From positions 1-64,000 of the forward strand of contig JAFQQW010000053.1 in the NCBI GenBank assembly GCA_017410375.1: 64,000 bases of DNA. Direction: 5' to 3'. Below are positions 1 to 9,220 of the stretch, one piece after another (position 1 is the first letter of the stretch; each line of letters starts with the position of its first letter). The stretch is from Clostridia bacterium. Its GTDB lineage: Bacteria; Bacillota; Clostridia; RGIG6154. Position numbers and translations under genes: made by a program. The notes under the pieces are model-generated. The model had not been told where the DNA came from, ran no database searches, and saw only the letters and a list, made by a program, of their open reading frames with translations.

Positions 1-2
1 TA

Positions 3-60
3 TTTTGTCAATTTGAATTCGTCGGCGTACAGAGGTACGGTAGAGTTCAAATTGACAAAA
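3..60. repeat. 15-bp perfect inverted repeat with nested hairpin
   Basis: Arms at 3-17 (TTTTGTCAATTTGAA) and 46-60 are exact reverse complements. Inside, CGTAC (26-30) and GTACG (35-39) form a second small stem around AGAG. No coding sequence is visible here. It could be a folded RNA, a protein-binding palindrome or the remnant of a small mobile repeat. The window begins at its left edge, so anything further left cannot be judged. Confidence 0.7.
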
Positions 61-67
61 AGCAAGC

Positions 68-102
68 AATGGAGCGGAATCCTCGATGGATTCCGCTCCA
101 TT
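68..102. repeat. 15-bp perfect inverted repeat
   Basis: AATGGAGCGGAATCC (68-82) and its exact reverse complement at 88-102 flank a 5-nt loop. It follows the 3-60 repeat directly. The stretch after it (about 119-150, containing TTCTTCGCTTCGCTCAGAA) resembles short dispersed intergenic repeats that I recall from other bacterial genomes; that resemblance is memory, not a search. GCAAGCAA (62-69) also pairs with TTGCTTGC (158-165) around the whole element. Confidence 0.65.
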
Positions 103-191
103 CAACATCTGTTCAAACCGGAGATTCTTCGCTTCGCTCAGAACAACAAATAGTTCTTTGCTTGCGGTAGAACGACTTTTTCGACAATCTG

Positions 192-217
192 AACCGACTT
201 TTATAAAAAAGTCGGTT
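192..217. terminator. hairpin with T-run, intrinsic terminator on + strand
   Basis: AACCGACTTTT (192-202) pairs with AAAAGTCGGTT (207-217) around ATAA, followed on the + strand by more T residues. The polarity suits a transcript entering from the left of the window. It also sits directly after the stop codon of the leftward creatininase-family gene, so it may act on both strands, though the T-tract is poorer on the minus side. Confidence 0.6.
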
Positions 218-223
218 TTTATA

Positions 224-958
224 TTAAACAATTGTTTTGTCTAAGTATTCAAGAGAAAGACGAACCATTTCGTCGCCCAGTTCTTTATTCGCTTCTACCG
301 CATTTTTGGTGAACCAGTGATTTACGTCACCAAGTCTGTCAAGCTGAACGGTATCGGGATACAAAGACATCAGAATAGAGGACTCGAATTTACCTGCATG
401 GTCGTATCCGGTTGCATTCTGCACCTCTGTGCTCATAGTCGGGATAACTTTAATCCAGCCAAAGGGATTGTCTTCGTTATCCAGGTTTTCATAATAGGTG
501 TTGTAGCTTTCACTGCCCCACCAGCCCTGTCCTTTTGTTTTTTCAAGGTAAGCCATGGTTGCACGTTTTGCCGCTTTCATATAAGAAAGAGTCATGGGCA
601 TTAAGGATTCCTGCTCAAACTGGTGGTGAATCAGAACATAAATGTTTCTGAAGCCCGAGCTTAAGAGGCTCATGAACACATAATACACATACTGTTCAAA
701 CGCGTTTTCTTCCACATGAACTGTTCCGCTGGTCTCATCGCCTACTGCATAGCTTGCCGGGCTGTAGCTAATGGAAGGAGCAATGATAAGCTCCTTTTTC
801 TCAGCAAGCTTTTCAAGCAAGCCCTGGGCAACCAGAGTGTCACAGCCGTACGCACAATGCGCACCGTGGTATTCAACTGTACCGCCAACAATGACAAGCG
901 GTGTATTGTTTTCCTTCGCTTTTGTAGTTTCACGCGGGAAAATTTTATCTAAATACAT
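224..958 (-). CDS. creatininase-family amidohydrolase
   Basis: A 244-residue protein of the creatininase / creatinine amidohydrolase superfamily, whose members are metal-dependent hydrolases of cyclic or linear amides. The first metal motif is clear: GGTVEYHGAH with Glu29 and His31, and Asp40 at the usual eleven-residue distance from the Glu. The family's GHGGN-type motif is replaced by HHQFE (111-115), and HAGKFESS (187-194) matches the usual HAGxxETS. It is the last gene of a four-gene leftward operon, with an AAGGAG site before ATG 958. The substrate is unknown; creatinine is only one possibility, since most family members act on other compounds (for example formamidopyrimidines or the MftE peptide). 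Confidence 0.85.
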   Translation of the reverse strand: MYLDKIFPRETTKAKENNTPLVIVGGTVEYHGAHCAYGCDTLVAQGLLEKLAEKKELIIAPSISYSPASYAVGDETSGTVHVEENAFEQYVYYVFMSLLSSGFRNIYVLIHHQFEQESLMPMTLSYMKAAKRATMAYLEKTKGQGWWGSESYNTYYENLDNEDNPFGWIKVIPTMSTEVQNATGYDHAGKFESSILMSLYPDTVQLDRLGDVNHWFTKNAVEANKELGDEMVRLSLEYLDKTIV

Positions 959-972
959 ATAGCAGCATCTCC

Positions 973-1773
973 TTATCCGCGGTTTTCTTCAAACCATTTC
1001 AAAATATTGCCTTCATACCAATTTTCGGGGTTTTGACGAACATCTTCTAAAAGCGCTTTGCCGAACGGTTGAATATTTAACACTTTTAAAAGTGCATTTC
1101 CGCAATAAGCTTCAGATGTATAAGCTTTTGCAAAGTCTGTAAGCTTATCGCTGATATACGGCCAGAAATAGGTGTCGCTTCGTTTGCTTCTGCCTTCAAA
1201 ACTGCAGATGCTTTGCACGGCTTTATCATATACACCACATTTTCTTGCATTCTCCAGCACTTCATCTACCAATGTGTATTCAAGTAAGTGCCGAAATGTC
1301 AGCTTATCAAAATCCACACCAACCAAAACAACTTTTACATTGTCCTCAAACATTTTCTGCCAGGGAGAATCCTTTGCAAAGGGCGTAGCACCGTAAATGC
1401 CGTACCGCTCACCTGAATTGCCATGGGTTTCGGTGTAGTAAAGCGCTTTCTTGCCGATTGCAGCGACCGAATGGGTTGCCTGATTACTTCTTAAAGCGTC
1501 CGGTCTTAGACGGAACACTTCTGTGATCAGACCTGTATCGGAAGGCTTATCCATATGCCAGGTATCATATGCATCCGAAAAGTTTTTCATGGAAAGCGTC
1601 GGCACGACAACCGTGCCTTCGCTTCCTACAGCTTCTAAAAATGCATCAATCACCGTATCTGCGCCGCCATCCACTTCACCAAAGCTTTTCAATGAGGAAT
1701 GCACCAGAACAGAATCTCCTTTTAAAATACCGAGTTTATTCAGGGATGAAACAACATCTTGTTTACAAATCAT
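973..1773 (-). CDS. AAC(3)-family N-acetyltransferase-like protein
   Basis: A 266-residue protein of the antibiotic_NAT / AAC(3) fold, which transfers acetyl from acetyl-CoA to amines. Visible family marks are LVHSSLKSFG near residue 24, GGADTVIDAF (36-45), GTVVVPT (53-59), the HSVAAIG motif with His101, and VGVDFDKLTFRHLLE with Thr159 and His162. Length is normal for the family. Homologues are common in environmental and gut bacteria without a resistance role. Its position inside an operon with two amidohydrolase-like proteins suggests acyl transfer to a metabolite rather than defence against aminoglycosides. Start ATG 1773 has AAGGTG upstream and lies 9 bp after the preceding stop. Confidence 0.85.
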   Translation of the reverse strand: MICKQDVVSSLNKLGILKGDSVLVHSSLKSFGEVDGGADTVIDAFLEAVGSEGTVVVPTLSMKNFSDAYDTWHMDKPSDTGLITEVFRLRPDALRSNQATHSVAAIGKKALYYTETHGNSGERYGIYGATPFAKDSPWQKMFEDNVKVVLVGVDFDKLTFRHLLEYTLVDEVLENARKCGVYDKAVQSICSFEGRSKRSDTYFWPYISDKLTDFAKAYTSEAYCGNALLKVLNIQPFGKALLEDVRQNPENWYEGNILKWFEENRG

Positions 1774-1782
1774 AAAATCACC

Positions 1783-2157
1783 TTATTCAGCGTAGCCTAA
1801 AGTTGTGTAAAACGCAAGGTTTGCCTGTGTGTTATCCAGTCTTCCATACTGCACAACAATGTTTCCGCTTGCTTCTAGCTTCATGGCATACTGGGTTTCA
1901 AAGGGCACTTCAAAATTGCACATATCGGTAAGATTGTTCATTCTGAAGCAACGTACCTTTTTCGCGCCGACTGTCCATTCGATATCCTCATAGCAGTCTT
2001 TATCAGTAAAGTAAAGGGTAACTTTGATTTTTACATCCTGTTCATTATCATTCACAATGATTACAGATTCATGCCCCTTTGCCTTACCTTCCCCGGGCTG
2101 CGGTAATTCGCAATCCGGTAAAATCCAAGTTTTTTTACCTACACCTTGATTACACAT
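1783..2157 (-). CDS. Anabaena sensory rhodopsin transducer (ASRT)-like small-molecule-binding protein
   Basis: A 124-residue protein matching the ASRT family: GKKTWILPDCELP at the N-terminus, GHESVIIVND, VTLYFTDKD, and a C-terminal VQYGRLDNTQANLAFYTTLGY. Known members form beta-sandwich tetramers; the Anabaena protein binds sensory rhodopsin, but most homologues occur in bacteria without rhodopsin and have been proposed to bind small molecules. No rhodopsin gene is in this window. The start is taken as ATG 2157, which overlaps the upstream stop by 8 nt and gives a family-like N-terminus; an in-frame TTG at 2166 has AAAGGA closer to it and is the alternative. Confidence 0.82.
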   Translation of the reverse strand: MCNQGVGKKTWILPDCELPQPGEGKAKGHESVIIVNDNEQDVKIKVTLYFTDKDCYEDIEWTVGAKKVRCFRMNNLTDMCNFEVPFETQYAMKLEASGNIVVQYGRLDNTQANLAFYTTLGYAE

Positions 2158-3325
2158 CGAGTTCAATGATTCCTTTCTTTAAGTAGTCGGTCATGGAATG
2201 GCAGCCGTCTTTTGTGATTGCAACACCTTTTTCCCATCTTACACCAAAGCCGTCGCCCGAAATAAAGGTATCCACCTGGAAGGTCATGTTTTCTTCCAGC
2301 GGATAATCGGAAGTGGTTTCCATCCAGGGTGCTTCTACTTCAATCATACCCGTGCCGTGGCAGGGACCGTATACAAAGTTATCTTTAAAGCCGTTCTCTA
2401 CATAAAGCTTGTAGAAATCCTTTGCAACATCGCTTGCCATTTTACCTGCCTTTAACTGTTCCACAGTCCAGTCGTGTGCCTGAAGGCAGAATTCAACAGT
2501 TTCTCTTCTCTTGCCTTCCAATTTACCCATAACGACAGGCAGACCGATTGCAGGAGAATAACCGTCAATTTTAGCAGAAAGGTTCAACTGAACAATATCG
2601 CCCTTGTTGATGGTTTTGTAACTGGAACGGGAAATTGCATGACTTGTGGACTTTTCGCTGAATACATACATCGGAAGACCTTCGTATTCTGCGCCTTCTT
2701 CATAAATAACTTTTTGTGCAACACCAACCATTTCAAGCTCGGTAACGCCGGGCTTAAGCTGACGGATAACTTCGTCGGTGGCAAGTTCAATGATTCGGAA
2801 GCCTTCCTGAATGCAAGCTAATTCATTGATACTCTTGATTTTACGTAAGGTTACCATAATATCATTGCAATTGGAAATTTCAGCATTGGGATAGCTTTCT
2901 TTCAAGCCTTCAAAAATCGGCAGCGTACATTCTACATAGCTACCCAGACCAATTTTGATGTTTTCGCCCGATACACCGATGCTTTTGAACACATCTTTAA
3001 ATGTGTCAGCATGCAGTTCAGGATATGCAGGGTCAGCAGATTCTCTGAATTCTCTTAAAACAAAGATTTTATCAAGCTTGGAAACGTCTTTTGCAAAGAT
3101 TGCAGATTCGGGACCTACCATCAATGCTGCGTCGCCGGTTGCAGAAATTGCAACGCCTGCTCTTTCAAACAACGGCCAGAAACCGCTGAAATATCTTGCG
3201 TTTGCATAATCCGATTCGGTGCTGGATACAACCATAACATCGAGGCCCTTATCGCGCACTAATTTTGCCGCCTTTGCAATTCTGTCCTTATACTCGCTTT
3301 CGGGGATACAAATTCTTTTACTCAT
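2150..3325 (-). CDS. creatinase-like M24 'pita-bread' hydrolase, metal site incomplete
   Basis: A 391-residue protein with an N-terminal creatinase_N-like domain (about 10-155) and a C-terminal M24 fold (about 165-390). Aminopeptidases of this clan bind two metals through Asp, Asp, His, Glu, Glu. Here the first Asp is Asn248 (QLNLSAK), the second is replaced around Ala259 (GYSPAIG), His323 is kept (CHGTG), the first Glu position is Asp352 (QVDTF) and Glu365 is kept (VRWEK). Loss of metal ligands is also found in creatinase, which uses the fold without metal to cleave a C-N bond. A creatinase-type or other non-peptidase reaction is therefore more likely than X-Pro cleavage. It is first in the operon, with AGGAGG before ATG 3325. 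Confidence 0.82.
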   Translation of the reverse strand: MSKRICIPESEYKDRIAKAAKLVRDKGLDVMVVSSTESDYANARYFSGFWPLFERAGVAISATGDAALMVGPESAIFAKDVSKLDKIFVLREFRESADPAYPELHADTFKDVFKSIGVSGENIKIGLGSYVECTLPIFEGLKESYPNAEISNCNDIMVTLRKIKSINELACIQEGFRIIELATDEVIRQLKPGVTELEMVGVAQKVIYEEGAEYEGLPMYVFSEKSTSHAISRSSYKTINKGDIVQLNLSAKIDGYSPAIGLPVVMGKLEGKRRETVEFCLQAHDWTVEQLKAGKMASDVAKDFYKLYVENGFKDNFVYGPCHGTGMIEVEAPWMETTSDYPLEENMTFQVDTFISGDGFGVRWEKGVAITKDGCHSMTDYLKKGIIELDV

Positions 3326-3355
3326 TTTTACATTCCTCCTTTTTTATTTACTTTT

Positions 3356-3361
3356 ATTATA
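3356..3361 (-). promoter_or_regulatory. -10 element for the 224-3325 operon
   Basis: On the minus strand TATAAT lies 31 nt before ATG 3325, predicting a leader of roughly 25 nt that carries AGGAGG. I see no clear -35 hexamer at 16-18 nt spacing, so the promoter may need an activator or be of an extended -10 type. Confidence 0.5.
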
Positions 3362-3440
3362 CATCAAGAATTCCCTTTTGTATTTGACCGATAATAAACT
3401 TTTTTTGCACAATCTTAAATTTATGTTATAAAAGACAATG

Positions 3441-3465
3441 AAAGCTCTGCAAAATGCAGAGCTTT
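3441..3465 (-). terminator. hairpin after the YitT gene
   Basis: AAAGCTCTGC (3441-3450) pairs exactly with GCAGAGCTTT (3456-3465) around a 5-nt loop, directly after the stop codon at 3468-3470. The minus-strand T-tract is short, but the stem is strong and separates this gene from the next leftward operon. Confidence 0.7.
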
Positions 3466-3467
3466 TT

Positions 3468-4307
3468 TTATACACTTCTGAAGCCTCGACCGATAATTTC
3501 ACTGCTGGTGGTAATAATGATAAAGGCGTGCGGATCAATTTCTTTGATTTTGTTGCGTAGCTTTATGGCTTCGATTCTTCGGCAAACGGTATGAATCATG
3601 TTTTTTTCATTTTTTGTGTACTCACCCACTACATTGCTTACCGTTACACCGTGATGCAACGTTTTGATGATAAATTCAGAAATTTCTTCCCGTTTATCCG
3701 TGATAACTACAAAATATTTAAAGGTATTTAAATTTTCAATAACCGCATCCACTAAAAACGCTTTGGCAAACAATCCTAAGATAGAAAAGAGTCCTGCTTC
3801 AATACCGAATACGAAAAACGAACTTGCAGCAACCACAAAGTCGGAAATCAGAAGCGCTTTGCCTACATCAAGGCTTGTAAATTTTTTCAGGATTAACGCA
3901 ATAATGTCTGTACCGCCTGCAGAGCCGTCGCTGTTAAAAATCATAGCCGAGCCGATAGAGGTTAAAAGCATGGCATAAATCAATTCTAAAAAGGGCTGGT
4001 CGGATAACGGTGCATTAAGTGGCATAAAAAGCTCAAACAAATAGGTAATTGCCGAATACAGCATACTGCAATACACGGTCTTTACGGTATTTTGTTTTCC
4101 AAGTAACAAAAAGCCAAGTACAAGTAGCGCGATATTCAGCGACCAGATATAAACACCTGCTGAAATGGGTGTAACCTTAGCAAGCAAGGTACCAATACCC
4201 GACACACCACCCGTAGCAAAGCCGTTGGGAATTTTAAAGAAATACACGCCCACAGCAAGAAGAAAACTACCAAATGTCATCCAAAAAAAGCTTTTGAATT
4301 TTTTCAT
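3468..4307 (-). CDS. YitT-family membrane protein (DUF161 + DUF2179)
   Basis: A 279-residue integral membrane protein. Residues about 1-195 carry five or six hydrophobic segments with the family pattern of small-residue turns (NGFATGGVSGIG near 28, SDGSAGGTDIIA near 126). The C-terminal 80 residues (from about 200) are the soluble DUF2179 domain, a ferredoxin-like fold with GVTVSNVVGEYT and CRRIEAIKLRNKI. Its function is not established. It stands alone between its own promoter (4337-4365) and a terminator. AAGGAG precedes ATG 4307. Confidence 0.9.
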   Translation of the reverse strand: MKKFKSFFWMTFGSFLLAVGVYFFKIPNGFATGGVSGIGTLLAKVTPISAGVYIWSLNIALLVLGFLLLGKQNTVKTVYCSMLYSAITYLFELFMPLNAPLSDQPFLELIYAMLLTSIGSAMIFNSDGSAGGTDIIALILKKFTSLDVGKALLISDFVVAASSFFVFGIEAGLFSILGLFAKAFLVDAVIENLNTFKYFVVITDKREEISEFIIKTLHHGVTVSNVVGEYTKNEKNMIHTVCRRIEAIKLRNKIKEIDPHAFIIITTSSEIIGRGFRSV

Positions 4308-4336
4308 AATGCATCTCCTTTTTTTCGTTTGCTTAC

Positions 4337-4365
4337 ATCATACTACAAAACTTAAGTTTTTTCAA
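4337..4365 (-). promoter_or_regulatory. sigma-A-type promoter for the YitT gene
   Basis: Minus strand: TTGAAA (4360-4365), a 17-nt spacer and TATGAT (4337-4342). The start codon lies 30 nt downstream of the -10. Confidence 0.7.
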
Positions 4366-4400
4366 CCATTTATTTATGAAAAAAACGACTTTTTCAAAAA

Positions 4401-4422
4401 AGAACCGCCATATGGCGGTTCT
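4401..4422 (-). terminator. palindromic terminator after the large secreted protein gene
   Basis: AGAACCGCCATATGGCGGTTCT is a perfect 22-bp palindrome starting 11 bp beyond the stop codon at 4433. On the minus strand it is followed by a run of T residues, giving a classic intrinsic terminator. Confidence 0.85.
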
Positions 4423-4432
4423 TTCAGTTTAA

Positions 4433-7400
4433 TTATTCAAACGGATGAATAGTAATTTTTTCCCATTTGTGGGTCATGCCAGGACCTGTGCCACTGCCGT
4501 AGTTGCTTGCGTTAATATTGGATTTAATCACAAGCACGGCTCTGCCACCGTCCCGAAGCTCAACAGAAGAAACGAAGCCATCCATTTTCTGGGTTTCACC
4601 CTTGTCCACAAGGTCTGCCGTAACTTTAAGGCCCAACGCATTGGTTGCGGTCAGTTCAAAGGGAAGCACCTTTGTATCGATAACAAATCTGAATTCGGAG
4701 GCTTGAGAGCCTTGCTGAACAATTTCAAACTCGGTCGACTTGAATTTTAGTGCTTTTGCTTCGTCCGATACAGATGCATCAGAACCCGTAGAGGGTGCAG
4801 AAGGTGTCGAAGGTGCAGATGCGGTCGGTTTTTCATACACAATGCCTTCAGCCTTGGATTTAAGGGCAGTCATCAGCTTGCCACTACCCGCATCAACTAC
4901 ACTGCCATCCTTCATGGTTTCGGAAAGCGTATAGGTAAATACAGCATCCGGATTGTCTACCTTAATAATAAATTCAAAAGGATAAACTGTAGCTGTTTCG
5001 GTTTTCTTTTCACCACCGTCAATCTGATAGGTTAAGGTTGCACTCTGAATGTCTGCCTGGGTATGAGTGGTATACACATACGCATAGTAGTGATCTGCAG
5101 ACATCTGTAAGGTATAGCCCTTACCTGCTTTATGATGGGATACGGTTGCACCGATTTGTGTATCCTGAATCTGATTACGGAGTGCCGCAAAGGAAGGTGC
5201 TTTAACAGTATCAATATTCAGCTTAACCGCCTGCAAGGATTTAGACGGAACAGTTAAGGTAAATGCACCGTTTACCACATCCACTGTGCCAATTTTGCCT
5301 GTTTTATCATAAAGTGTTGCTGTGCCGTTATAATTTGCACCGCCTTCAATTTTATCTCCAAGCTTAATGGTTGTGGTTACAGCGTCAAAATCTTCGTTCA
5401 TAAACGCAATACCCACTACCCCGTCTTTTCTTGCTGCCATCCAGTCAATCTGAATGGAATCAGGCTCTACGATGCCTTTGGCAAGCCAGGGCCACATATC
5501 TGCTTCATCATAGAATTTGCCGGGCTTATGACCGTACTGATTGGAGTTAAAGTAAGCATAACCCTGCTGACGAAGTGCCGGGAATTCAATATTTTGTCCC
5601 GAAAATGCATAGGTCTGATTGATTAAGAAATCTTCCAGCATTGCAATGTAAGGCGGTAAATGGTGCCAGTAAATACCTGTGTAATCCGGGCCGTCAACCG
5701 GATAGTTGGTTTCCTGTTCATAGGTCATGAATGCACTTCTGTAATAGCCTTCATAACTGTTATAACGACCCAGAATCGAGTTTTGGGCAAGGTTTGCATA
5801 AAAATCCTCGCCGGTATATGCAGAAAGCTTCATGAAATCACCCACAAAGGACTGCATCACAATATGTGCACTTCTTACAAAGGTAGAGGGCTGTTCAATA
5901 CCAAGGCTTACACGGGACGGAAGCCATCCTTCTACGTTTTTGGTAAGGCCTGTAATGATATCATTGTTGTGGCTTGTGTTGGAAAGGTCACCTTCTCTGC
6001 CGATACGCATCTGGGAAGGACCTGCCCACCACATGGTGCTGTTTACTTCGGAATTATAAACAAAATTCTTCTGAATTTCTTCAAGGTTATTCGCTTCCAC
6101 AAGATTGGTTCTCTTGTCACCGTCCACACCGGGAACCCATAGACATGTGGTCATAACCTGCGCAACATATTCTGCCGCGTCCAGATACTTTTTGTCGTCG
6201 GTAAGCTCGTACATATCAAGGAGCGAAGACATGTTCGGCACGCAGGAGATGTAAACAAAGGTGTTCCAGTCCTGCTGAATGTAGCTTTCTTTATACACTT
6301 CCTCTTCCAGATATTTATCTGCAAGTGCAATAGCGTTGTCCAGATATTTTTGTTCACCTGTATGCTGATACATTGCAATATCATTTGCAAAAGGCGGAAT
6401 GGAGCCGTAGGTATTTACAACCTCGGTATTCCCCTTTTCAACACCGTAATCATAAAGGAACGGAATTGCGCCCTGGCTCATTTCATACATACCAAGCATA
6501 ATGTTTGCGTTAAAGCCCTTGATAGGCTCGCCAATGGGCGAAATAGAATCTGTCTTTAAATACGGACCGTTACCCTCACCAATACGGTTAAAGTGGAGGT
6601 TTTTACGGGTTAGCGCATTGGCAATGGTCGGAATGGTACGTCTTTCAAGCATCTCTTCATCTTCAGAGAGCAAGTAATCCTGCAAAGCCTGCATAGAGTT
6701 ACCCATGGAGGTGGTGTTACTGCTTTCCATGTTGTAATGTGCTTTGTCGTATACATCCCAGCCTGCATATTTGTCATCCAAAATCAGGTCACGGGTGTTA
6801 AAAATAACATCGTTCAGTGAGCGGATATAGTTCTTTCTGTAACTGTCTACATCAAAAAGATCTTCTGCGATAACCGAATAGCTATCAAACCAGTCTGCCA
6901 CATCACTGACAATACGCACACGAAGGTTATAGGTAGAACCGGCATCCATTTTAGATTCCTTTGAACCCATAACAGGTGCAAAAGCAGTACCTCTGTGCAA
7001 ACCATTCAGGCCGTGCATGGTAATACCCAAAATAGAGTTGTAATCATAAACCCATCTTTGAGGAATCCAGGACGGATCGAACACAACGCCCTTGGTAACC
7101 GCAACATTGCTGTAGGCATTATTATCGTAAAGGGTAAGTGTGCCCATGGGGGTATACAGATACTGTTCGGTCAGAAGCTGCGGTTCTTCCGGCACACGCT
7201 TATACTGAATGCGAAGCGGTGCTAAAGCAAAGGAATATTCCTGCTGTTCAAAACCCTTTCCTTCCCATACCGCGATGCTGTAATAACCGTTTGTGCTGGG
7301 TGAAAAGTCAATAGATACCAAAGGATATCTTTCCGCATCGGTTCTCCAGGTTGCTTTTAATACGCCAGTTTCATTTTCGGAAACTAAGGTTACGCCATTT

Positions 7401-9220
7401 GCATCTGCAACATAATCGGTGGGAATGAAATAGTGCGGTGCACCTGCTTTGTAGGGATCTTCCGTAAGACCGCCATAGGTGTTTCCGTCATAATTGTATT
7501 TCATGGAAATACCGTAAATGTCACGGGAAACGGAGTAACCGGCTTCGGTTGCCTGATAAACAAGGTAACCTAAATCTTCATTTCTGTTCTTGGTTTTTAC
7601 CCACTGACCGTTATGCTTTGCATAAATTTCGTTCTGTACAACCTGTCCGCGAGAGGTAGGAACCTTATAGAATACAACCTTTGTATCTTCGTTTTCGATA
7701 GATGTGCTTTCTGTAGGTGTACCTTCTTCGTTGGCATAAGCCGGGAAAGAAAGGTTAAAGTCCGGCACATTATTATAAGGCATTACGTTGCGCGTTACTG
7801 TCTGATAATTTTCAGCCGGCACATAATCTAAATCCTTAGAAAGCAAAATGGCATCATAACGGGCATAGAAGCCTGAGGTATCATGTACATACATAGTGTT
7901 TTTGCCTGCAGGTAGTTCGATTGTGCCACCTGTTGCCCACTTGTAGCCGGTATCACCGTGGGTGCCGTATTTATGCTCTAACATCGGCCGGTCATTAAAT
8001 TGCAGATTAAAGAATCTGTGTCCCTGCTGATTCTGCGCAAAGTCTTTGGAACGCACCCAGATACGGTATGTACCGCCCTTACTGAGTTCAAAGGGTGCGA
8101 TTGCAGGCTTGTTGTTCGAGGCATCTGCATCCTCTAAGGTTGCGTTGATATCAGAAGGTACCGCACCTCGCATGGCAGAAGTGTTGAACGCCCCATCTGC
8201 ATTTTGTTCCATTACCCATGTACCAACATCAGTATAGGATTCCTGGGTAAACAAAACCATTTCTTCGGGAACATTAGCCAGAATAGATACGGTCTGCGTG
8301 GTATCATCCCAGGAAACCTGCGCACCAAGCGCTTCGGATACAAAACGAAGCGGTACAAGTGTTCTGTCGTTTAACAAAACGGCAGGTTGGTCTAAGGTTT
8401 GAGGCTTGCGGTTTACTTTTACATTTACATCGTCAATGGGAAGGCTGACTTCCAATCCGTTTCGTCTGCCCATCGCGGTCTGATTCTCATCATCCCAGGA
8501 AACCACGCAACCGAGTGCTTCAAAAATCGCACGGAACGGAACCATAGTTCTGTCGTTCAAAAGAATCGGATCTACATCAAAGGTCATCCACTCGCCGTTC
8601 AGCTTCACAGCAATTTCGCTGTCAGGTCTCCCGGAAAAGTCCGCATCAGGAGAAAAAGTATAATCCCCTTCTTTGTACTGATGTGCAGAAATCAAAGCTT
8701 CTACATCCTCTTTAGATGTCGGTGGCGTAAAGTCTAAATCATCTGTAATGACAATCGCAGCACATCTTGCACAGTTGCCTTTGGAATCAATCACAGAAAC
8801 AACCTGCTCACCGCCAAAAGCCATGAACGGGTCTGTTGCTTCCCAGGAAAAGCCGTCAACGCAATGTGCACCGAATTGTTGCGTAATTACACTGCCAAGC
8901 TGAACTGTATAAGGACGCGTGCCGGGCATGGTCGCAAAGTCTTTAGACAGTACCCAAAGCTTATACGTCCCTTCCTTCGGCAGACACACCTTAATGGTTG
9001 CAGGTGTATCAAGACTTGGAACACTATTGGTTGCGCCCATTATAATTTTGTAACCGGTCGCAGGATCGGTCTGCACCTGCCAGTTACCCAAATCGGTAAA
9101 ACCTTCAGGGCCTAATACAATGTACACGTTGTCCTTTTTCAGCTCGCTCGCAAATGCCGAGAACGGCATCATAGAGAAAACCAACAAAAGAACAAGCATC
9201 ATAGAAATACTCTTTTTCAT
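4433..9220 (-). CDS. large secreted multidomain protein, probable polysaccharide-active enzyme
   Basis: A 1595-residue exported protein with signal peptide 1-25 (basic start, hydrophobic core, SAFA). Module A1 (about 29-165) and A2 (about 321-466) are clearly related: both have TDLGNW/TDVGTW, GTYKLWVLSKDF/GTYRIWVRSKDF, FGAHCVDGF/YGTHGDTGY and a closing DLDF/DLDY. They look like beta-sandwich binding modules. Between them lies a copper-amine-oxidase N-terminal-like domain (about 205-313) with two LLNDRTxVPxR repeats. A beta-rich region (470-780) precedes a helical region (about 790-1215) with toroid-like repeats such as EQKYLDNAIALADKYL and DKKYLDAAEYVAQVM, as in many lyases and glycosidases. 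A C-terminal beta region, a Pro/Ser linker (1466-1482) and a final domain follow. I recognise no catalytic family. No cell-wall anchor was seen. Confidence 0.75.
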   Translation of the reverse strand: MKKSISMMLVLLLVFSMMPFSAFASELKKDNVYIVLGPEGFTDLGNWQVQTDPATGYKIIMGATNSVPSLDTPATIKVCLPKEGTYKLWVLSKDFATMPGTRPYTVQLGSVITQQFGAHCVDGFSWEATDPFMAFGGEQVVSVIDSKGNCARCAAIVITDDLDFTPPTSKEDVEALISAHQYKEGDYTFSPDADFSGRPDSEIAVKLNGEWMTFDVDPILLNDRTMVPFRAIFEALGCVVSWDDENQTAMGRRNGLEVSLPIDDVNVKVNRKPQTLDQPAVLLNDRTLVPLRFVSEALGAQVSWDDTTQTVSILANVPEEMVLFTQESYTDVGTWVMEQNADGAFNTSAMRGAVPSDINATLEDADASNNKPAIAPFELSKGGTYRIWVRSKDFAQNQQGHRFFNLQFNDRPMLEHKYGTHGDTGYKWATGGTIELPAGKNTMYVHDTSGFYARYDAILLSKDLDYVPAENYQTVTRNVMPYNNVPDFNLSFPAYANEEGTPTESTSIENEDTKVVFYKVPTSRGQVVQNEIYAKHNGQWVKTKNRNEDLGYLVYQATEAGYSVSRDIYGISMKYNYDGNTYGGLTEDPYKAGAPHYFIPTDYVADANGVTLVSENETGVLKATWRTDAERYPLVSIDFSPSTNGYYSIAVWEGKGFEQQEYSFALAPLRIQYKRVPEEPQLLTEQYLYTPMGTLTLYDNNAYSNVAVTKGVVFDPSWIPQRWVYDYNSILGITMHGLNGLHRGTAFAPVMGSKESKMDAGSTYNLRVRIVSDVADWFDSYSVIAEDLFDVDSYRKNYIRSLNDVIFNTRDLILDDKYAGWDVYDKAHYNMESSNTTSMGNSMQALQDYLLSEDEEMLERRTIPTIANALTRKNLHFNRIGEGNGPYLKTDSISPIGEPIKGFNANIMLGMYEMSQGAIPFLYDYGVEKGNTEVVNTYGSIPPFANDIAMYQHTGEQKYLDNAIALADKYLEEEVYKESYIQQDWNTFVYISCVPNMSSLLDMYELTDDKKYLDAAEYVAQVMTTCLWVPGVDGDKRTNLVEANNLEEIQKNFVYNSEVNSTMWWAGPSQMRIGREGDLSNTSHNNDIITGLTKNVEGWLPSRVSLGIEQPSTFVRSAHIVMQSFVGDFMKLSAYTGEDFYANLAQNSILGRYNSYEGYYRSAFMTYEQETNYPVDGPDYTGIYWHHLPPYIAMLEDFLINQTYAFSGQNIEFPALRQQGYAYFNSNQYGHKPGKFYDEADMWPWLAKGIVEPDSIQIDWMAARKDGVVGIAFMNEDFDAVTTTIKLGDKIEGGANYNGTATLYDKTGKIGTVDVVNGAFTLTVPSKSLQAVKLNIDTVKAPSFAALRNQIQDTQIGATVSHHKAGKGYTLQMSADHYYAYVYTTHTQADIQSATLTYQIDGGEKKTETATVYPFEFIIKVDNPDAVFTYTLSETMKDGSVVDAGSGKLMTALKSKAEGIVYEKPTASAPSTPSAPSTGSDASVSDEAKALKFKSTEFEIVQQGSQASEFRFVIDTKVLPFELTATNALGLKVTADLVDKGETQKMDGFVSSVELRDGGRAVLVIKSNINASNYGSGTGPGMTHKWEKITIHPFE

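Follow-up and report, generated by a model that had tools for sequence, protein, structure and literature searches.

A conserved three-gene module of M24-fold, ASRT-type and creatininase-like proteins in Clostridia with a possible role in the catabolism of sugar derivatives

A widespread three-gene module is encoded at the start of contig JAFQQW010000053.1 of a Clostridia bacterium (assembly GCA_017410375.1), of which positions 1 to 64,000, the whole stretch of DNA analysed here, are referred to as the window. The module combines an M24/creatinase-fold protein, a small ligand-binding protein of the ASRT type, and a creatininase-superfamily hydrolase, and it occurs mostly in Clostridia of herbivore guts. 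In the window, these genes share a compact minus-strand unit with a fourth gene, which encodes an AAC(3)-like acyltransferase and is accessory, lying outside the conserved module. The evidence described below is consistent with a catabolic module in which hydrolase, M24 protein, and ASRT protein may act together on an amide- or lactam-bearing sugar derivative, a proposal whose substrate and reactions we infer and in which our confidence is evenly balanced.

The unit comprises the following genes:

224..958, minus strand: creatininase-superfamily hydrolase, 244 amino acids; Pfam Creatininase (PF02633) above the gathering score
973..1773, minus strand: AAC(3)-like acyltransferase, 266 amino acids; Pfam Antibiotic_NAT (PF02522) above the gathering score; accessory gene
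1783..2157, minus strand: ASRT-type small ligand-binding protein, 124 amino acids from ATG; Pfam ASRT (PF07100) above the gathering score
2150..3325, minus strand: M24/creatinase-fold protein, 391 amino acids, first gene of the unit; Pfam Creatinase_N (PF01321) and Peptidase_M24 (PF00557), both above the gathering score

Results

Conservation of the module

The tightly packed unit in which an ASRT-type binder is encoded with divergent relatives of creatinase and creatininase, as described in an earlier, sequence-only reading of this DNA (the original prediction), is real: the four minus-strand open reading frames and their Pfam matches are as stated. Its extension to a four-gene system held in part. 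The triad is conserved, but almost no relative carries the AAC(3)-like gene, and the unit is therefore counted here as three genes rather than four. When the same neighbours were sought in other genomes, as had been suggested, three of the four genes proved not to be scattered (64 of 80 loci; 20 of 20 genomes).

The first of these figures comes from a scan of 84,980 species genomes with the M24 protein, which yielded 284 relatives. Neighbourhoods were gathered for the best 80 of the 284, a set that holds a few duplicates (of each other or of relatives from the ASRT search), and in 64 the genes for M24, ASRT, and creatininase-like proteins follow one another in this order on one strand. ASRT genes in 60 relatives identified the full triad in six genomes besides that of the window, five with the same order and one rearranged. 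Because the first sample was anchored on M24, the survey was repeated with the creatininase-like protein as anchor in 291 genomes of the class. Its gene was present in 20 of them, all among the 27 genomes with a triad-type M24 (hypergeometric p ~2e-25; by genus, 16 within 23 of 180, p ~8e-18; kinship ignored in both calculations), and the distance between the two genes is below 1.2 kb in 17 of these 20.

The triad is kept across several taxonomic families. The nearest relative of the window's genes differs by tree, being locus L048 for M24 and L068 for the creatininase-like protein; given this disagreement, the genes stay together despite apparent exchange. In plasmid records, relatives of ASRT and M24 were found at ~25-34% identity only, and no annotated triad was present.

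The AAC(3)-like gene behaves differently. Among the neighbourhoods of the best 80 of 284 M24 relatives, it occupies the same position in one other locus (L081), and a related AAC(3) gene lies ~3 kb downstream in two more (L095 and L116); its presence within ~8 kb in 3 of 80 loci was judged little above chance expectation. Between the window and L081, the AAC(3)-like copies are 50% identical and their neighbours 77-82%. The protein matches Antibiotic_NAT with 133.4 bits against a threshold of 25. Its score with the NCBIfam model NF033082 is 98.5 bits against 270, with all other NCBIfam AAC(3) models also far below cut-off. A role as a resistance gene was considered and rejected, the protein falling below all curated cut-offs.

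The ASRT protein and its ligand pocket

The ASRT protein scores 101.9 bits against a Pfam threshold of 25, and its relatives in the PDB are 2II7 and 1NC7. Its better start is the ATG at 2157 rather than the TTG at 2166 that opens the listed reading frame (1783-2166). At this start, ATGTGTAA, the gene overlaps the M24 stop by 8 base pairs (bp), and the identical 8-bp ATG overlap recurs in 27 of 78 related loci.

ASRT proteins have been proposed to bind sugars through a pocket of His and Cys within the motif SHEshChhN, and to act as intracellular sugar sensors by protein contact (PMC2739507). In the window protein, the pocket His is kept (H32 in GHESVIIVN), and the Cys position is occupied by Ile. 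The same holds throughout the loci gathered here, where 90 of 90 M24-linked ASRT proteins have the pocket His together with Ile, Val, or Met in place of Cys, although many of the 90 are close relatives and represent fewer independent events. In contrast, Cys is present in 24 of 28 ASRT proteins from other contexts, whose recognisable neighbours are mostly rhamnose-type genes; of the four without Cys, two are encoded at the start of a contig, where the upstream neighbour is cut off. This change gives a clear indication, open to testing, that M24-linked ASRT proteins may bind a different ligand.

At two loci (L076:9166-10317 and L089:9197-10315), the place of ASRT between the M24 and creatininase-like genes is taken by a protein of ~380 residues that, by eye, looks like a parallel beta-helix.

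An M24 fold with an altered active site

The predicted structure of the M24 protein adopts the pita-bread fold (mean predicted local distance difference test score, pLDDT, 79). In Foldseek comparisons of the model, prolidases are closest by E-value (E 6e-25) and creatinase is closest by query TM-score (TMq 0.72). Aligned with the prolidase metal ligands Asp, Asp, His, Glu, and Glu, the protein has N248, A259, H323, D352, and E365; two ligands are identical (H323 and E365), one is conservatively replaced (D352 for Glu), and the two Asp residues are lost. In alignment with genuine creatinases, to which it is 19% identical, the catalytic His, Glu, and Glu correspond to I231, Gly, and D352. The assignment of these positions as prolidase ligands and creatinase catalytic residues is one that we take to be established. 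A similar loss is seen in the other M24 types linked to ASRT. Many polar residues around the former site are invariant across 85 sequences, including H229, C322, H323, D352, E365, and R363. The best curated match is the archaeal Xaa-Pro dipeptidase model, at 84 bits against a cut-off of 630.

An intact metal site in the creatininase-like protein

Aligned with genuine creatininases, the creatininase-like protein retains the metal ligands E29, H31, D40, H112, and E115, as well as H187 and E192, and the metal-site residues are conserved in 77 relatives. The roles of these residues, as members of the two-metal ligand set or as the catalytic His, are those established for the family. Genuine creatinase-creatininase pairs recovered from plasmids (L128 and L129) served as controls, and their creatininases pass the curated equivalog cut-off of TIGR04448 (372 and 363 bits against 235). 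The window protein scores 64.8 bits. Failing this cut-off yet keeping the metal-site residues, the protein very probably functions as a metal hydrolase whose specificity is not that of creatininase.

Carbohydrate context

The 123 operon partners of the module are rich in DUF4432, GFO/IDH/MocA, GH20, GH78, GH3, apiosidase-like, and polysaccharide deacetylase families; among 108 more distant genes of the same loci, the leading families are not carbohydrate ones. In roughly half of the loci, M24 is directly preceded by a divergent AraC-family gene, and in two distant genomes (L161 and L204) LacI regulators and ribose/rhamnose-type sugar ABC transporters stand beside module genes. Amino-sugar genes (NagA-like, sugar-kinase-like APH, GH20, and deacetylases) recur near the triad. 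They are suggestive of the type of substrate, but their counts are too small to fix it.

The hydrolase partner itself varies. A polysaccharide-deacetylase-family gene replaces the creatininase-like gene in the M24-ASRT loci L033 and L108, and another is the last gene of an M24-ASRT-transporter operon in L204. In L161, a gene for an M20 deacylase comes after the triad. Paralogous ASRT-M24 clusters carry PTE-like genes (L026, L029, and L031) or an M81 gene (L030) instead of the creatininase-like gene. The M24 type of the ASRT-PTE-M24 cluster in the window's own genome (the second M24 type) is also present in seven of the 27 genomes with triad-type M24.

A further recurrent partner of ~710 residues (L095:10320-12446 and ~11 other loci) has no Pfam match, and its model folds like GH138, GH67, and GH20. 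Since model confidence is 70, it was assigned to the class of glycosidases only, and it possibly represents an undescribed glycoside hydrolase family.

Several additional observations concern these loci. The L204 region (L204:3295-18000), from a distant genome of the phylum, holds two parallel operons in which M24 is joined by a ribose-type sugar ABC transporter; one of them also encodes ASRT and the polysaccharide deacetylase, and the other a creatininase-like protein. The window's own genome encodes a second, ASRT-PTE-M24 cluster on contig C24 (L026:13814-16456), flanked by two AraC-family genes. A recurrent protein of ~260 residues (starting KLKDKLWLWGQ) is encoded next to the second M24 type at L166:7537-8319, L165:10398-11183, and L178:8032-8916, with a sub-threshold GH85 match only. 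Genome G000 (2.77 Mb) yielded 110 matches to an AraC-family query, a number that would be in keeping with specialisation in the degradation of plant polysaccharides.

The unit and its surroundings in the window

The window begins at contig base 1 and includes the four genes in complete form, with only 224 bp of sequence downstream of the unit. The gaps between the ASRT and AAC(3)-like genes (1774-1782) and between the AAC(3)-like and creatininase-like genes (959-972) measure 9 and 14 bp, and a ribosome-binding-like AAGG(A/T)G precedes each of the two latter genes. Candidate signals around the unit are as follows:

68..102, minus strand: terminator-like hairpin with a 15-bp stem, downstream of the creatininase-like gene; number of such matches not above chance
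3391..3418, minus strand: promoter-like match (TTAAGA, 16 nucleotides, TATTAT) between the upstream hairpin and the M24 gene; consensus scan, weak, not above chance
3441..3465, minus strand: terminator-like hairpin after the upstream YitT-like gene, parting that gene from the unit; number of such matches not above chance

Terminator-like matches in the window did not outnumber those in shuffled sequence, and an Rfam scan of positions 1-5000 matched no RNA element. Near the unit, positions 4433-9220 (minus strand) encode a secreted protein of 1595 amino acids with a Cu_amine_oxidN1 match and a weak GH127 match. Read by eye, its sequence resembles that of a 1798-residue protein of the same genome (L214:7398-12794, minus strand), which directly adjoins the genome's other creatininase-family gene (L214:6554-7348).

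Discussion

A model for module function

The catabolic reading draws on the linkage and co-occurrence of the genes, the intact site of the creatininase-like protein, the M24 fold with its altered site, the change in the ASRT pocket, and the carbohydrate context, and we give it even odds. The theme of amide and ring hydrolases among the partners (polysaccharide deacetylase, M20, PTE-like, and M81) was also counted in its favour. In such a model, a sugar derivative with a C-N bond, in an amide or a lactam, would be imported or released by a glycosidase, and the creatininase-like metal hydrolase would open or cleave the amide. That product, or a related N-substituted acid, might then be the substrate of the M24 protein, which would work without a metal in the way that creatinase processes creatine. 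ASRT, encoded by a gene that overlaps the M24 gene or lies just behind it, is probably translationally coupled to M24; it would bind a sugar-like ligand and serve M24 as a subunit or gate. In a few lineages, the AAC(3)-like enzyme would acylate an amine.

More specifically, and only tentatively, the module may define a pathway, not described so far, that acts on a sugar amine or on the amide of a sugar acid, such as a compound of the opine/Amadori type or a sugar-lactam from plant matter. A ring-opening metal amidohydrolase (creatininase-like, with a polysaccharide-deacetylase-fold, PTE-like, or M81 enzyme as substitutes) would feed a new metal-free class of M24 enzymes with an ASRT ligand-binding subunit.

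Several observations weigh against a catabolic role. In M24, no invariant set of replacement catalytic residues was identified. ASRT is absent from ~10% of loci, where the M24 and creatininase-like genes are directly adjacent, and hence is not essential. Operon partners differ from locus to locus and thus do not point to one particular sugar. Upstream of the unit in the window lie genes for a YitT-like membrane protein and the large secreted protein, and no AraC gene adjoins the unit. The window's genome does encode a relative of the usual AraC neighbour (C24:5324-6193, 46% identity); since this gene lies away from the unit, it was not tied to the operon.

Alternative explanations

The main rival would assign catalysis to the creatininase-like protein alone and regard M24 as a pseudo-enzyme that pairs with ASRT to sense metabolites or serve as a scaffold, controlling the creatininase-like protein or a transporter. 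The loss of both known M24 active sites, the persistence of the M24-ASRT pairing with several different hydrolase partners, and the sensor role by protein contact proposed for ASRT (PMC2739507) point in this direction. The invariant polar residues around the former M24 site are more typical of an active site, however. We consider a sensor or scaffold possible but less probable than the catabolic reading. The fold of creatinase, moreover, can catalyse without a metal. Salvage of peptides or imino acids, with M24 as a divergent prolidase-type dipeptidase and the creatininase-like protein as an amidase for small cyclic peptides, would agree with the best curated M24 match and with the M20 deacylase that follows the triad in L161. 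We regard it as unlikely, since that match reaches 84 bits of the 630 demanded, both Asp metal ligands of M24 are lost, and the neighbours are carbohydrate genes.

A role in detoxification or in modifying antibiotics, with the AAC(3)-like enzyme at its centre, is suggested by the location of an AAC(3)-family gene inside the unit and by the independent case at the same position in L081, but it is very unlikely in view of the absence of the gene from nearly all triads, the score of 98 bits against an AAC(3) cut-off of 270, and surroundings devoted to carbohydrate metabolism. Classical creatinine degradation, in which creatininase opens creatinine and creatinase cleaves creatine, would explain why the same two superfamilies stand side by side as in the plasmid clusters L128 and L129, and the original prediction had framed the unit in terms of creatinine and guanidino compounds. 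That framing is not supported by comparison with the plasmid controls, and the pathway was rejected on curated scores and catalytic residues: the creatininase-like protein reaches 65 bits against 235 (363-372 for genuine enzymes), M24 has Ile231, Gly, and Asp352 for the creatinase His, Glu, and Glu, the two proteins are 19-26% identical to the genuine creatinase and creatininase, and the neighbours are carbohydrate genes. We consider it highly improbable. Least credible of all is that the triad adjacency is a one-off of the window's genome, given its conservation across several families and its linkage despite differing M24 and creatininase-like trees; at most, this would apply to the AAC(3)-like gene, which the closest M24 relative (L048) lacks and which recurs in L081, a locus that is not sister to the window operon.

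Novelty and significance

The original prediction knew of no described pathway with this gene set, and likewise none was found in the open-access literature. Searches there (subscription papers lay outside their scope) returned nothing that joins ASRT with creatininase, with M24 or an operon, or with rhamnose; from broader searches, judged by title and abstract, nothing relevant emerged. The families are known, as are ASRT-sugar operons since 2009. The combination of genes, the pocket change, and the M24 subgroup devoid of its metal site were not found described in that literature.

With 20-27 of 291 sampled genomes, the module is present in ~7-9% of the class as sampled, and its close named relatives come mostly from herbivore guts. 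In routine annotation, the three genes would be labelled peptidase, creatininase, and "sensory rhodopsin transducer". An M24 subgroup without either known active site may hold new chemistry. The module also offers an operon for directly testing what ASRT proteins bind, and here a clear difference in the pocket (Cys versus Ile, Val, or Met) goes with gene context.

Comparison with known systems

Among the closest described counterparts are the sugar-linked ASRT/ASRAH operons (De Souza, Iyer and Aravind 2009, PMC2739507), for example rhamnose-type clusters with a TM1070-like ASRT. Common to both are a stand-alone ASRT inside a carbohydrate-catabolic operon and a conserved pocket His. In those operons the partners are sugar isomerase, aldolase, and kinase, whereas here they are M24 and creatininase-like proteins, neither of which is named in the main text of that paper; the family's pocket Cys, in turn, is replaced in every one of the 90 M24-linked proteins.

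The creatininase-creatinase pair resembles the module in that the same two superfamilies are encoded together and the creatininase metal ligands are conserved in both. Creatinase and the window M24 share a fold, and both are without the metal-binding Asp residues. Unlike creatinine clusters, the window unit has ASRT and carbohydrate neighbours and lacks the creatinase catalytic residues.

Recruitment of the M24 fold to small-molecule catabolism is also seen in DoeA (ectoine hydrolase) and DddP (dimethylsulfoniopropionate lyase), both of which are Foldseek matches of the window M24 (E 1e-18 to 1e-21; 15-17% identity in structural alignments). The window protein falls far below the corresponding NCBIfam cut-offs (53 against 613 bits for DoeA and 22 against 600 for DddP). 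For the creatininase-like protein, the second-best curated match is IolN (NF041098), the 3-dehydro-scyllo-inosose hydrolase of inositol degradation, at 52 bits against a cut-off of 245 and with residues 2-125 alone matched. IolN provides a precedent for a creatininase-fold enzyme in carbohydrate catabolism.

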